From contig JALENG010000010.1 in assembly GCA_022767925.1 (NCBI GenBank), positions 1 to 35,368 on the forward strand: DNA of 35,368 nt, in the 5' to 3' direction. Each line of letters begins with the position of its first letter. Within the stretch, counting starts at the first letter, position 1. Positions 4,613 to 32,090 of this stretch are shown here, piece by piece. Position numbers and translations under genes: made by a program. The stretch comes from Clostridia bacterium (GTDB lineage: Bacteria; Bacillota; Clostridia; Oscillospirales; Acutalibacteraceae). The notes under the pieces were generated by a model. It had not been told where the DNA came from. It saw only the letters and a program-made list of their open reading frames with translations, and made no database searches.

Positions 4613-5263
4613 ATGAATTCGGATATTTTGAACCAGTTTACCTATGGAATGTATGCGGTTGGCGTAAAGGGAGAAAACGGCCCTTCTGCCTGTATCTGTA
4701 CATCCGTCTCCCAGGTGTCCCCGATGCCGGATTGCCGGATCTCCGTGTGCATGAGCCGGGAGAACTACTCCCACGCGTGTATTGAGCGAACCGGGATTTT
4801 CTCGGTTTCCATCCTCTCGAAGAACACCAGCGGGGCGGTGATCGGCGCGCTGGGCTTTACCAGCGGACGTTTTGGCGGAAAGCTGAAGAATATCCGCCAC
4901 CGGGTGCTGCGCGAGGGGGTTCCCGTGATCAAGGAGGATACCTGCTGCTGGGTTCTGTGCCAGGTGGTGGGCAAGGCGGATGCCGGTACCCACACGATTT
5001 TTATCGGCAAAGTGCTGGCCGGCAGTGAATCGTTTGTGGGGGAACCCATGACCTACGAGGATTACCGCACACAGATCAAGGGTGTTCCGGCCAGGAATGC
5101 TCCCATTTACCTGCCGCAGGCGGCCACCCGCGGGCAGGACGGCGAATCGTTCATCTGCCCGGTGTGCGGGTACCGTTTCAGTGATCCGGATACACCGTTT
5201 GAGGAGCTGCCGGAGAACTGCCCCAGCTGCGGGGCGCCGCGCTCGGCCTTTGTGCGTGGATAA
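4613..5263 (+). CDS. Flavin reductase domain fused to C-terminal rubredoxin domain (high-molecular-weight rubredoxin type)
   Basis: N-terminal flavin reductase-like (FTYGMYAVGV...) and C-terminal FICPVCGYRFSDPDTPFEELPENCPSCGAPRSAF rubredoxin motif. Confidence 0.85.
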   Translation: MNSDILNQFTYGMYAVGVKGENGPSACICTSVSQVSPMPDCRISVCMSRENYSHACIERTGIFSVSILSKNTSGAVIGALGFTSGRFGGKLKNIRHRVLREGVPVIKEDTCCWVLCQVVGKADAGTHTIFIGKVLAGSESFVGEPMTYEDYRTQIKGVPARNAPIYLPQAATRGQDGESFICPVCGYRFSDPDTPFEELPENCPSCGAPRSAFVRG

Positions 5264-5269
5264 TCGGAG

Positions 5270-5317
5270 AAAAAAGGGGGCTTCCTCGTGGGAGGAGGCC
5301 CCTCTTTTTGGGAGGAT
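5270..5317 (+). terminator. Intrinsic terminator
   Basis: AAAAAAGGGGGCTTCCTC-GTG-GGAGGAGGCCCCTCTTTTT. Confidence 0.75.
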
Positions 5318-5400: not shown

Positions 5401-5429
5401 TTGCATTTCCCGCAAAACCATGGTATCAT
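5401..5429 (+). promoter_or_regulatory. Sigma-A-type promoter of the permease leader
   Basis: TTGCAT (5401-5406), 17-nt spacer, TATCAT (5424-5429), preceded by T-rich UP-like sequence. Confidence 0.7.
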
Positions 5430-5456
5430 TTTGCAGATAAAGCGAAAAGGCGGTGG

Positions 5457-5555
5457 ATGACCATGACAAAACGATTTTTGAATTTTTCCAGGATCGGATG
5501 TCGCATTCCCGTTGCTTTTCATTTGGAGTATGGGCAGTATTCCTCTCAAGGATGA
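5457..5555 (+). CDS. Putative leader peptide (MTMTKRFLNFSRIGCRIPVAFHLEYGQYSSQG)
   Basis: Short ORF between promoter and terminator; stop codon TGA (5553-5555) lies in the loop/3' arm of the terminator hairpin; U5 tracts near the start. Confidence 0.45.
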   Translation: MTMTKRFLNFSRIGCRIPVAFHLEYGQYSSQG

Positions 5556-5576
5556 GAGGGGTGCCGCCTTTTTTTT
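5532..5576 (+). terminator. Leader intrinsic terminator/attenuator upstream of the permease
   Basis: GGGCAGTATTCCTCTC-AAGGAT-GAGAGGGGTGCCGCC followed by T8; stem of about 15 pairs with one mismatch. Confidence 0.85.
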
Positions 5577-5610
5577 GCTCACCTACATTCAACAAAGGAG
5601 AAGTGAGAAA

Positions 5611-7086
5611 ATGAGCGACAAAAACAATGGCGCCATTACCGACGCCAGAAAGCTCGGAATCCCGAAGATGCTGATTCTTGGGATCCAGCACACCTTCGCC
5701 ATGTTCGGTGCAACGGTTCTGGTTCCGCTGCTGACGGGGCTGGATGTGGCCACCACGCTGCTGATGGCCGGTCTGGGCACGCTGCTGTTCCATCTGCTGA
5801 CCAAGGGGAAGGTTCCGGCGTTCCTGGGCTCTTCGTTTGCTTTCCTGGGCGGTTACGCGGCCGTGGCCCCCGCTGCCGGGAAGGACGGCCTGACCCAGGC
5901 CGAGCTGCTGCCCTATGCCTGCCTGGGCGTTGCCTGTGCCGGTCTGCTGTACCTGGTGCTGGCGGCGATCATCAAACTGGTGGGCGTTTCCAAGGTGATG
6001 AAGTTCTTCCCGCCCATCGTCACGGGCCCCATCATCATCGCCATCGGCCTGAACCTGGCGGGCAGTGCGGTTAACAACTGCCGGACCTGCTGGCCCATCG
6101 CGATTATCGCCCTGCTCTCCATCGTGATTTTCAATATCTGGGGCAGAGGCATGGCCAAGATTATCCCGATTCTGCTGGGCATCGGCACGTCGGTGGTTGT
6201 GGCCATTATTCTGGCGGCCGTTTGCGGTCAGGTGGTGACCATCACCGCGGCGGACGGTTCGGTGCAGAACTTCATCTGCATTCTGGGCGATGCGAACATG
6301 AAGCTGTTCGATGTTGGAAAGCTGGAAGCGCTGCAGAATGCGGCCTGGTTTGGTTTCCCGATCACCGGCAGTGAGATCGTATTCGGCAATGTGGGGGATA
6401 CCTCCCGTGCGATCAGCGCCATCATTGCCATCATGCCCATCGCGCTGGCGACCATGATGGAGCATATCGGCGATATCTCTGCCATCAGCGCCACCGTGGG
6501 CAAGAATTTCATCAAGGATCCCGGCCTGCACCGCACCCTGATGGGCGACGGCCTGGCCACGGTTCTGGCCTCGCTGTTCGGCGGCCCGGCCAATACGACC
6601 TACGGCGAGAACACCGGCGTGCTGGTGCTGACCAAGGTGCATGATCCCAAGGTCATCCGCATTGCGGCCTGTGTGGCCATTCTGCTCTCCATGTCCCCGA
6701 AGGTATCGGCCTGCATCAACCTGCTGCCTGATGCGGTCATCGGCGGCATCTCCTTTGTTCTGTACGGCATGATCTCGGCCATCGGCGTCCGCAATGTGGT
6801 GGAAAACCATGTGGACTTCGCCAAGAGCCGCAACTCCATCGTGGCGGCGGTCATTCTGGTAACGGCCCTGGGCCTGGGCACGGTAGCCATCCCGCTGGGC
6901 AGCGTGACCATCGAGCTGACCGCTCTGGCCGTGGCTTCCATCGCCGGTATCGTCCTCAACGCCGTTCTGCCCGGGAAGGATTACAACTTTGACGAGGAAA
7001 TCCCCCAGGAAACGGGCGTCAGCTTTGAAATCCATGATTCTGTTCATGGAAAGCAGGGCTCTGGTGACAGCGAAGAGAACGCCTGA
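5611..7086 (+). CDS. uraA: NCS2 family uracil/xanthine permease (uracil permease-like)
   Basis: MSDKNNGAITDARKLGIPKMLILGIQHTFAMFGATVLVPLLTGLDVATTLLMAGLGTLLFHLLTKGKVPAFLGSSFAFLGGY; GPANTTYGENTGVLVLTKV; SD AAAGGAG. Confidence 0.92.
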   Translation: MSDKNNGAITDARKLGIPKMLILGIQHTFAMFGATVLVPLLTGLDVATTLLMAGLGTLLFHLLTKGKVPAFLGSSFAFLGGYAAVAPAAGKDGLTQAELLPYACLGVACAGLLYLVLAAIIKLVGVSKVMKFFPPIVTGPIIIAIGLNLAGSAVNNCRTCWPIAIIALLSIVIFNIWGRGMAKIIPILLGIGTSVVVAIILAAVCGQVVTITAADGSVQNFICILGDANMKLFDVGKLEALQNAAWFGFPITGSEIVFGNVGDTSRAISAIIAIMPIALATMMEHIGDISAISATVGKNFIKDPGLHRTLMGDGLATVLASLFGGPANTTYGENTGVLVLTKVHDPKVIRIAACVAILLSMSPKVSACINLLPDAVIGGISFVLYGMISAIGVRNVVENHVDFAKSRNSIVAAVILVTALGLGTVAIPLGSVTIELTALAVASIAGIVLNAVLPGKDYNFDEEIPQETGVSFEIHDSVHGKQGSGDSEENA

Positions 7087-30547: not shown

Positions 30548-30559
30548 CAAACGTACAGG

Positions 30560-30820
30560 CGAAGAAGGAAAGAAGTACGGGTATTCCCACGGTCAAGAGA
30601 AGCTGCGGTGGGTGGAAGCAGCTGCGTGGAGGCCCCGAAATACATTCCGGAGCTGCCGGCTGAAAGGGAACGAGTAGGCGACGGGCCGTGTGTGCGCGTT
30701 AAAGCACAAGGGTATGACTGTACCCGTGAGGCCGGTGCTGTGAGGCATCGGTGAACTGAGGTGGTACCGCGGATTTTCCGCCCTCTGCATGCAACAGGAT
30801 GCAGGGGGCTTTTTCTTTTT
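30560..30820 (+). promoter_or_regulatory. T-box riboswitch, probable Tyr specifier (UAC)
   Basis: Specifier candidate CCCGAAATACATTCCGG, T-box AACTGAGGTGGTACCGCGG (to 30772), terminator CCCTCTGCAT-GCAACAGG-ATGCAGGGGGCTTTTT; immediately precedes tyrS. Confidence 0.9.
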
Positions 30821-30866
30821 CCAGCCGCCCTGCCGTTTGATTCAGGAAAGGAAGGAATGTACGAAA

Positions 30867-32090
30867 ATGGGTGTTTACGAGGATTTAAAAGAGCGCGGCC
30901 TGATTGCACAGGTCACCAATGAAGAAGCCGTGCGCCATCTGCTCGACGACGAAAAGATTACGTTCTATGTGGGGTTTGATCCCACGGCGGACAGCCTGCA
31001 TGTGGGGCATTTTGTCCCGATTATGGCCATGGCCCATATGCAGCGCGCCGGGCACCGCCCCATTGCGCTGTTCGGCGGCGGCACGGCGATGATCGGCGAT
31101 CCCACCGGCAAGACGGATATGCGCAAAATGATGACCGTCGAGACCATCGACCACAACATCGAGTGCTTTAAAAAGCAGATGTCCCGTCTGATTGATTTCA
31201 GCGATGGGAAGGCGATTATCGCCAACAATGGCGACTGGCTGCGGAATCTGAACTATATCGAATTTCTGCGGGAAATCGGCGTGCACTTCTCGGTGAACCG
31301 CATGCTGGCGGCCGAGTGCTACAAGCAGCGGCTGGAGCGCGGGCTGTCGTTCTTCGAGATGAACTATATGATCATGCAGAGCTATGATTTCCTGGAGCTG
31401 AACCGCCGGTATGGCTGCCAGATGCAGCTGGGCGGCGACGATCAGTGGAGCAACATGATTGGCGGCGTGGAGCTGTGCCGCCGCAAGGACGGCAAGAGCG
31501 TCGAGGCCATGACCTTCACCCTGCTGACCACCAGCGAGGGAAAGAAAATGGGCAAAACCGAGAAGGGCGCCCTGTGGCTGGATCCCAACAAGACCTCGCC
31601 CTACGAGTTCTATCAGTACTGGCGGAACGTGGCGGATGCCGACGTGATGCGCTGCATGCGCATTGTCACCTTCCTGCCCATGGACCAGATCCGCGAGATG
31701 GATACCTGGCAGGGCAGCGAGCTGAACAAGGCCAAGGAGATTCTGGCGTACGAAGTGACCAAGCTGATTCATGGCAAGGAAGAGGCCGACAAGGCCCAGG
31801 CGGCCGCCCGGGCCCTGTTTGTGGGCGGCGGCGACAGCGAGCATATGCCCACCACCGAGCTGACCCGGGACGAGCTGGGCGACGGCATTGCGATTCTGGA
31901 TCTGCTGGTGAAGACAAAGCTGGCGTCCTCCCGCGGGGAAGGAAAGCGCCTGGTGCAGCAGGGCGGCGTCACGCTGGGAAGTGAGAAGGTCACCGATCTG
32001 CAGCGGATGGTGACGCAGGCGGATTTTGACGGCGACGCGCTGATCCTGCGCAAGGGAAAGAAAGTTTTCCACAAGGTCGCCCTGGTATAA
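30867..32090 (+). CDS. tyrS: Tyrosyl-tRNA synthetase
   Basis: [65 protein letters not shown] (KMSKS-type). Confidence 0.97.

Follow-up and report, generated by a model that had tools for sequence, protein, structure and literature searches.

A putative translation-dependent attenuator with a Shine-Dalgarno lock helix upstream of a uracil permease gene in Clostridia

Results

Leader, terminator and permease gene

The window, i.e., the whole stretch of DNA analyzed here, comprises 35,368 nucleotides of a Clostridia bacterium. It includes uraA, a permease gene preceded by a leader that has its own promoter-like site and intrinsic terminator. The features of the locus, all on the forward (+) strand, are listed below together with the evidence on which each rests.

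5276–5303, +, terminator of the upstream gene, separating the upstream transcript from the leader (terminator scan)
5401–5429, +, promoter TTGCAT-17-TATCAT: TTGCAT at 5401–5406, spacer of 17 nt, TATCAT at 5424–5429 (sequence)
5444–5459, +, 5' strand of the lock helix P1, spanning the Shine-Dalgarno (SD) region and the first ATG (MFE fold; own-versus-swapped pairing test)
5445–5453, +, SD region of the leader ORF, AAAAGGCGG (sequence; SD-like)
5463–5555, +, leader ORF MTKRFLNFSRIGCRIPVAFHLEYGQYSSQG, ATG at 5463–5465, 30 codons; alternative start ATG at 5457–5459 in the same frame; stop TGA at 5553–5555 (sequence; stop in the hairpin conserved in relatives)
5475–5487, +, two U5 (T5) tracts in the leader ORF, 5475–5479 and 5483–5487, candidate UTP-sensitive slow sites (sequence)
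5504–5520, +, 3' strand of the lock helix P1, the pyrimidine-rich tract CATTCCCGTTGCTTTTC shortly 5' of the terminator (MFE fold)
5533–5568, +, intrinsic terminator hairpin (attenuator), 16 pairs, about −23 kcal/mol (fold and terminator scan)
5569–5576, +, T8 tract of the attenuator (sequence)
5611–7086, +, uraA, NCS2 uracil permease-like, 491 aa (PDB matches, NCS2 profile)

An earlier reading of this locus from the sequence alone (the sequence-only reading) had named a promoter, a short ORF, its T5 tracts and the ribosome-binding site of the permease, and all of these are present in the sequence at the positions it gave. The strong terminator that it described, with about 15 pairs plus T8 at 5532–5576, was recovered as 16 pairs at 5533–5568 followed by T8 at 5569–5576. 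Both sequence and fold confirmed its placement of the leader stop, TGA 5553–5555, in the terminator loop and the first bases of the 3' arm. Folded together, leader and terminator are much more stable than their shuffles (z −3.9, 0/200). The hairpin at 5533–5568 is not the terminator of the upstream gene, a flavin-reductase/rubredoxin-like ORF (4613–5263), since that gene has its own terminator at 5276–5303.

The promoter of the window scores under the threshold of a generic 9-of-12 scan; the form TTGCAN-17-TATNAT is found again at the uraA leaders of relatives. Of the two in-frame ATGs, the alignment with G001, a genus-mate of the source genome G000, favours ATG 5463 over ATG 5457 as the likelier leader start, because the distance of 9 nt between AAGGYGG and the start is the same in both leaders (in the G001 leader, L002, the aligned motif is AAGGTGG). 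The SD of uraA itself, AAAGGAG, lies at about 5595–5601, and its ATG at 5611.

The best PDB matches of the permease are uracil permeases (E 7e-58). Against the profile of the NCS2 superfamily, TIGR00801, it scored 275.5 bits, below the cut-off of 291.8, and against the uracil permease equivalog NF007995 it scored 280 bits, below the cut-off of 477. The gene upp, required for using imported uracil, is present in the source genome.

Leader ORFs of relatives end at the terminator

By itself, the window leader is unremarkable: a stop in the hairpin has a p value of 0.15 when the leader is fully shuffled, and of 0.42 when the SD and start are kept. We therefore gathered the uraA leaders of relatives, and the significance comes from them. 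The sample consisted of 47 distinct leaders in which a promoter-like site and an intrinsic terminator precede uraA; many of the genomes sampled are metagenome assemblies, and the consensus rules and thresholds for selecting leaders were fixed after the sequences had been inspected. A leader was considered to pass if its best SD-led ORF stopped between 12 nt 5' of the hairpin and the hairpin end.

The stop was at or in the terminator hairpin in 38 of the 47 leaders, while 7.8 were expected from dinucleotide-shuffled leaders, a null in which phylogeny is unmodelled and for which genus-level repeats address kinship in part. The genus-weighted count was 23.2 out of 31, with 4.7 expected (z 9.6). 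When the SD and start were kept in place, 38/42 leaders had a stop at or in the hairpin, as opposed to 17.6 expected (z 7.5). L002 was scored as a failure, as a two-codon ATG frame slightly outscores its GTG frame, which ends in the loop. Two of the 38 passing leaders were dropped from later analysis, namely L041 and L106 (the "ORF" of the latter being two codons), leaving 36 leaders from 22 genera.

Comparison of the leader across relatives had been set as a check by the sequence-only reading. The leader ORFs, 13–41 codons long, are unrelated in sequence across genera (e.g., MNDLFTDRKTVFFFHFFYDSGK in L171 and MKVRTLLTKFSAPSVSVSSF in L178), and it is the position of their end that is kept. The G001 leader is very different in sequence, with a GTG start (VKVSYVVSRLSHFPFLFHFQKKRQDRFR), and its TAA also lies within the terminator loop. 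The first base of the stop precedes the first paired one by 1–2 nt in 12/36 leaders and lies 14–21 nt into the hairpin in 11/36; in some leaders the stop precedes the hairpin by up to 12 nt, and there ribosome blocking would be weak. The stop codons are TGA in 24, TAA in 9 and TAG in 3 of the 36 leaders. Conservation of the peptide sequence was also considered. L201 and L224 differ by 3 synonymous and 9 nonsynonymous codons, and thus the leader peptide itself is not conserved. The layout resembling pyrBI/pyrL that the sequence-only reading had suggested is supported by the recurrence of a stop-at-hairpin ORF in 22 genera, with its functional steps set out as proposals in the Discussion.

When the leader ORFs are aligned by their stops, the T fraction rises from approximately 0.27 to 0.45–0.58 within the last 18 nt. 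Phe, Ser and Leu abound in the C-terminal halves of the leader peptides, with Phe making up 17% and Ser 15% of the last 12 residues.

The pyrimidine tract before the terminator pairs with the leader Shine-Dalgarno region

Leaders from which the terminator was removed still fold more than their shuffles (mean z −1.82), because a helix, P1, joins the SD/start region to the pyrimidine tract before the terminator. In the MFE fold of the window leader, 5444–5459 pairs with 5504–5520. The SD pairs with the tract of its own leader at −17.65 kcal/mol and with the tracts of other leaders at −14.38 kcal/mol (p ≤ 5e-5, 29/34). With one leader per genus, the own-versus-swapped difference was −3.43 kcal/mol (p 0.0002), while the SD of uraA, serving as a control, had no own-tract preference (p 0.65). 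Shuffling within the tract weakens SD pairing (mean z −1.20 ± 0.21; Fisher p 6e-9, uncorrected for relatedness). Closely related leaders retain the helix despite changes on both strands, e.g., L015 versus L216.

The unpaired probability of the window SD is predicted to fall from 0.81 to 0.23 after 5504–5520 is transcribed. Across the 36 leaders, predicted SD openness remains at about 0.5–0.6 up to 30 nt 5' of the hairpin and drops to 0.18 at the hairpin itself, so that predicted closure is confined to the last 20–30 nt 5' of the hairpin. The corresponding openness is 0.29 with shuffled tracts, and 0.51 for the uraA SD at the same loci; the hiding of the SD is therefore partly a matter of tract composition and partly of specific pairing. 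What the sequence-only reading had not seen is that the SD of the leader ORF is paired with, and hidden by, the pyrimidine tract closest to the terminator. Such pairing of a leader-ORF SD with a terminator-adjacent pyrimidine tract is new here.

Search for PyrR, riboswitches and other mechanisms

The sequence-only reading could not recognize a convincing PyrR site and had proposed a search for one or for a known riboswitch; the search agrees with it. In G000, which is approximately 99.5% complete, no PyrR protein was found over the cut-off (best about 33.5 bits, cut-off 138), and none exceeded the family cut-off in G001. The PyrR-binding RNA (RF00515) was not detected in G000 or G001, and an Rfam search of the leader matched no riboswitch, T-box or other family. 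PyrR control was rejected on account of no protein over the cut-off and no RNA site, and a riboswitch or T-box on account of no Rfam match. Within the order as sampled, PyrR is present in 148 out of 394 genomes. It is absent from 30 of the 32 genomes that have such a leader and a known PyrR status; in the two PyrR-positive exceptions, G309 and G368, pyrR is not beside uraA in the sequence read. Loci in which pyrR adjoins uraA have no leader ORF of this kind, save the two-codon call in L106.

Further candidates were rejected. An antiterminator formed by the leader and the 5' arm of the hairpin has no pairing excess (mean z −0.30), and the complementarity of AAAAGGCGG and CCGCCTTTT (5445–5453 with 5564–5572) is without counterpart in G001. 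Reiterative transcription was set aside as there is no homopolymer run at the start site. An amino-acid leader-peptide attenuator was dismissed because the stop lies in the hairpin and the leader does not pair with the 5' arm beyond chance. The same device was also sought before pyrB, where the leader ORF is absent in G001 and none is convincing in G000; it is therefore not common to the whole pathway.

Discussion

We consider it likely that a translation-dependent transcription attenuator following the logic of pyrL/pyrBI lies before uraA. This type of attenuator demands a short SD-led ORF between promoter and terminator, a U-rich stretch inside the ORF 5' of the terminator, an overlap of the ORF with the terminator, and a pyrimidine gene downstream; each of these is present. 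UTP-dependent pausing and a read-through that requires leader translation would be its further marks. Translation of the leader ORF, obstruction of the hairpin by a ribosome, UTP as the signal and a timing-lock role for P1 are inferred; the ribosome probably decides whether uraA is transcribed. In the proposed process, the SD of the leader ORF would stay open until the pyrimidine tract (5504–5520) is transcribed. Given the U-rich stretches, we propose that the speed of the polymerase depends on UTP. When UTP is plentiful, the polymerase would pass quickly through these stretches and the tract would pair with the SD, forming P1. With P1 closed, no ribosome would load, the hairpin at 5533–5568 would form and transcription would end at T8. 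When UTP is scarce, RNA polymerase would be slow in the U-rich stretches, and a ribosome would initiate in time, holding P1 open. At the stop codon in the hairpin this ribosome would cover the 5' arm, whereupon termination would fail and uraA would be transcribed. A finishing ribosome should end in, or a few bases from, the terminator, keeping the hairpin open. Expression of uraA would lead to uracil import, with upp there to use the uracil. As the lock would shut once the tract is made, the outcome is proposed to depend on whether the ribosome started in time.

A more specific form of this mechanism is possible, and we advance it tentatively: a UTP-timed self-closing translation gate, in which one and the same tract would be both the slow stretch for the polymerase and the strand that hides the SD of the ORF. 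The decision would then be the loading of the first ribosome before the tract is finished. Transcription in Bacillota is classed as runaway (PMC13323073), and it speaks against an attenuator that under this regime a ribosome would rarely keep up. The gate, however, would need one timely initiation and not steady transcription-translation coupling, and would be workable where the polymerase outruns ribosomes. We therefore propose that, given the P1 lock, the device could work despite runaway transcription in Bacillota.

A translation-dependent attenuator might also respond to a signal other than UTP, i.e., ribosome availability, charged tRNA, CTP or ppGpp. The richness of the C-terminal halves of the peptides in Phe, Ser and Leu would suit such a signal, as would the tract, which is C-rich as well as U-rich and whose tie to UTP is itself deduced. 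Classical amino-acid attenuators have their leader stop far 5' of the terminator, and termination is averted when the ribosome stalls rather than when it finishes; here, the stop is at or in the hairpin. Moreover, no fixed single-codon run is conserved in the leader ORFs, and the downstream gene imports uracil. We regard a signal other than UTP as unlikely.

If P1 and the terminator instead made up a leader RNA that senses a protein or a ligand, in the manner of PyrR control or as a riboswitch, then the ORF would be incidental. The own-versus-swapped test, which shows P1 to be a real helix, and the usual control of Firmicute pyr genes by PyrR would both fit, but if the ORF were incidental, it would not stop at the hairpin in 23/31 genera. 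What the leaders share is only SD, ORF and stop position, with no common unpaired motif seen among them, and neither PyrR over the cut-off in G000, nor a PyrR RNA, nor an Rfam family was found. A sensing RNA is thus highly improbable. Chance, i.e., an ordinary leader with a terminator plus an open frame, could account for the window leader alone (p 0.15–0.42), but it is contradicted by the joint evidence over 22 genera and is barely credible.

The proposed attenuator of the pyrL/pyrBI type can be compared with known systems. The UTP-sensitive attenuator of E. coli pyrL-pyrBI likewise has a promoter, a short SD-led U-rich leader ORF (LPFFFPL), an intrinsic terminator overlapped by it and a pyrimidine gene (PMC5021804), and a close ribosome at pyrL prevents termination (PMC5021804). 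However, the frame of pyrL (44 aa) continues through the hairpin to a stop beyond it, whereas the uraA leader ORFs, with 13–41 aa, stop at the hairpin edge or in the loop, a difference that the sequence-only reading had not noticed. The gene downstream also differs (ATCase in pyrBI, a permease here), as does the phylum. The pyrL leader of E. coli MG1655 (L193) is predicted to fold with its SD CGGGAGGA paired to the U-rich tract UCUUCCCG in a P1-like manner (8 pairs); in this single sequence the pairing is not beyond shuffles (z −0.65).

The PyrR attenuators of Bacillota resemble the present leader in that a terminator precedes a pyrimidine gene of a Bacillota genome, and close uraA homologues in PyrR-plus relatives often adjoin pyrR; they differ from it in that here there is no PyrR over the cut-off and no PyrR-binding RNA. 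Control of a terminator by translation of a leader ORF, as proposed here, is reported in Bacillota for bmrCD, vmlR and tlrB, and for the histidine leader peptides before hisS paralogues (PMC2965389). Those systems respond through stalling to antibiotics or histidine codons, while here completed translation should prevent termination. A survey of premature terminators from 2010 noted that few leader peptides were known beyond Proteobacteria and Actinobacteria; the survey reported the histidine leader in bacilli and did not mention uracil (PMC2965389). In the open-access literature, which takes in few subscription journals, we found no prior account of a leader of this kind upstream of uraA.

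In Bacillota, where the polymerase is taken to outpace the ribosomes, attenuators like pyrL should not work. If more than 20 clostridial genera have kept a ribosome-dependent attenuator, the runaway view becomes directly testable outside Bacillus. Such an attenuator also suggests a mode of pyrimidine salvage control in many Clostridia without PyrR. The putative pyrimidine-sensing switch resembles that of E. coli and is unexpected in Bacillota, and the SD lock is a new idea that can be tested in E. coli pyrL too.

Other leaders and elements

A different attenuator lies before uraA in L003, L017, L018, L098 and L100. Their 5' element, TGCCGACAAGAT, is able to pair with the terminator's 5' arm (GGTCTTGTC...), which is an antiterminator layout; no Rfam family was matched in these leaders. 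L183/L053 and L184/L070 look similar to the TGCCGACAAGAT-type leaders. In L098 and L100, the element also reads ATG CCG ACR AGA TTG TAA (MPTRL), and L041 combines an element of this type with a leader ORF whose end falls within the terminator loop.

Upstream of pyrB in G000:C101 (L157) and G001:C2 (L133), a strong terminator-like hairpin follows the −10 box by approximately 15–25 nt. These hairpins start too early for an ordinary leader to fit; in G001 the sequence is AAAGGGGGGCTTTTTAAAAACAGCACCCCCTTTTTTT. Elsewhere in the window, an ordinary T-box leader (30553–30788; RF00230, 104.9 bits) lies directly 5' of the ORF at 30789–32090, which reads as a tyrosyl-tRNA synthetase.
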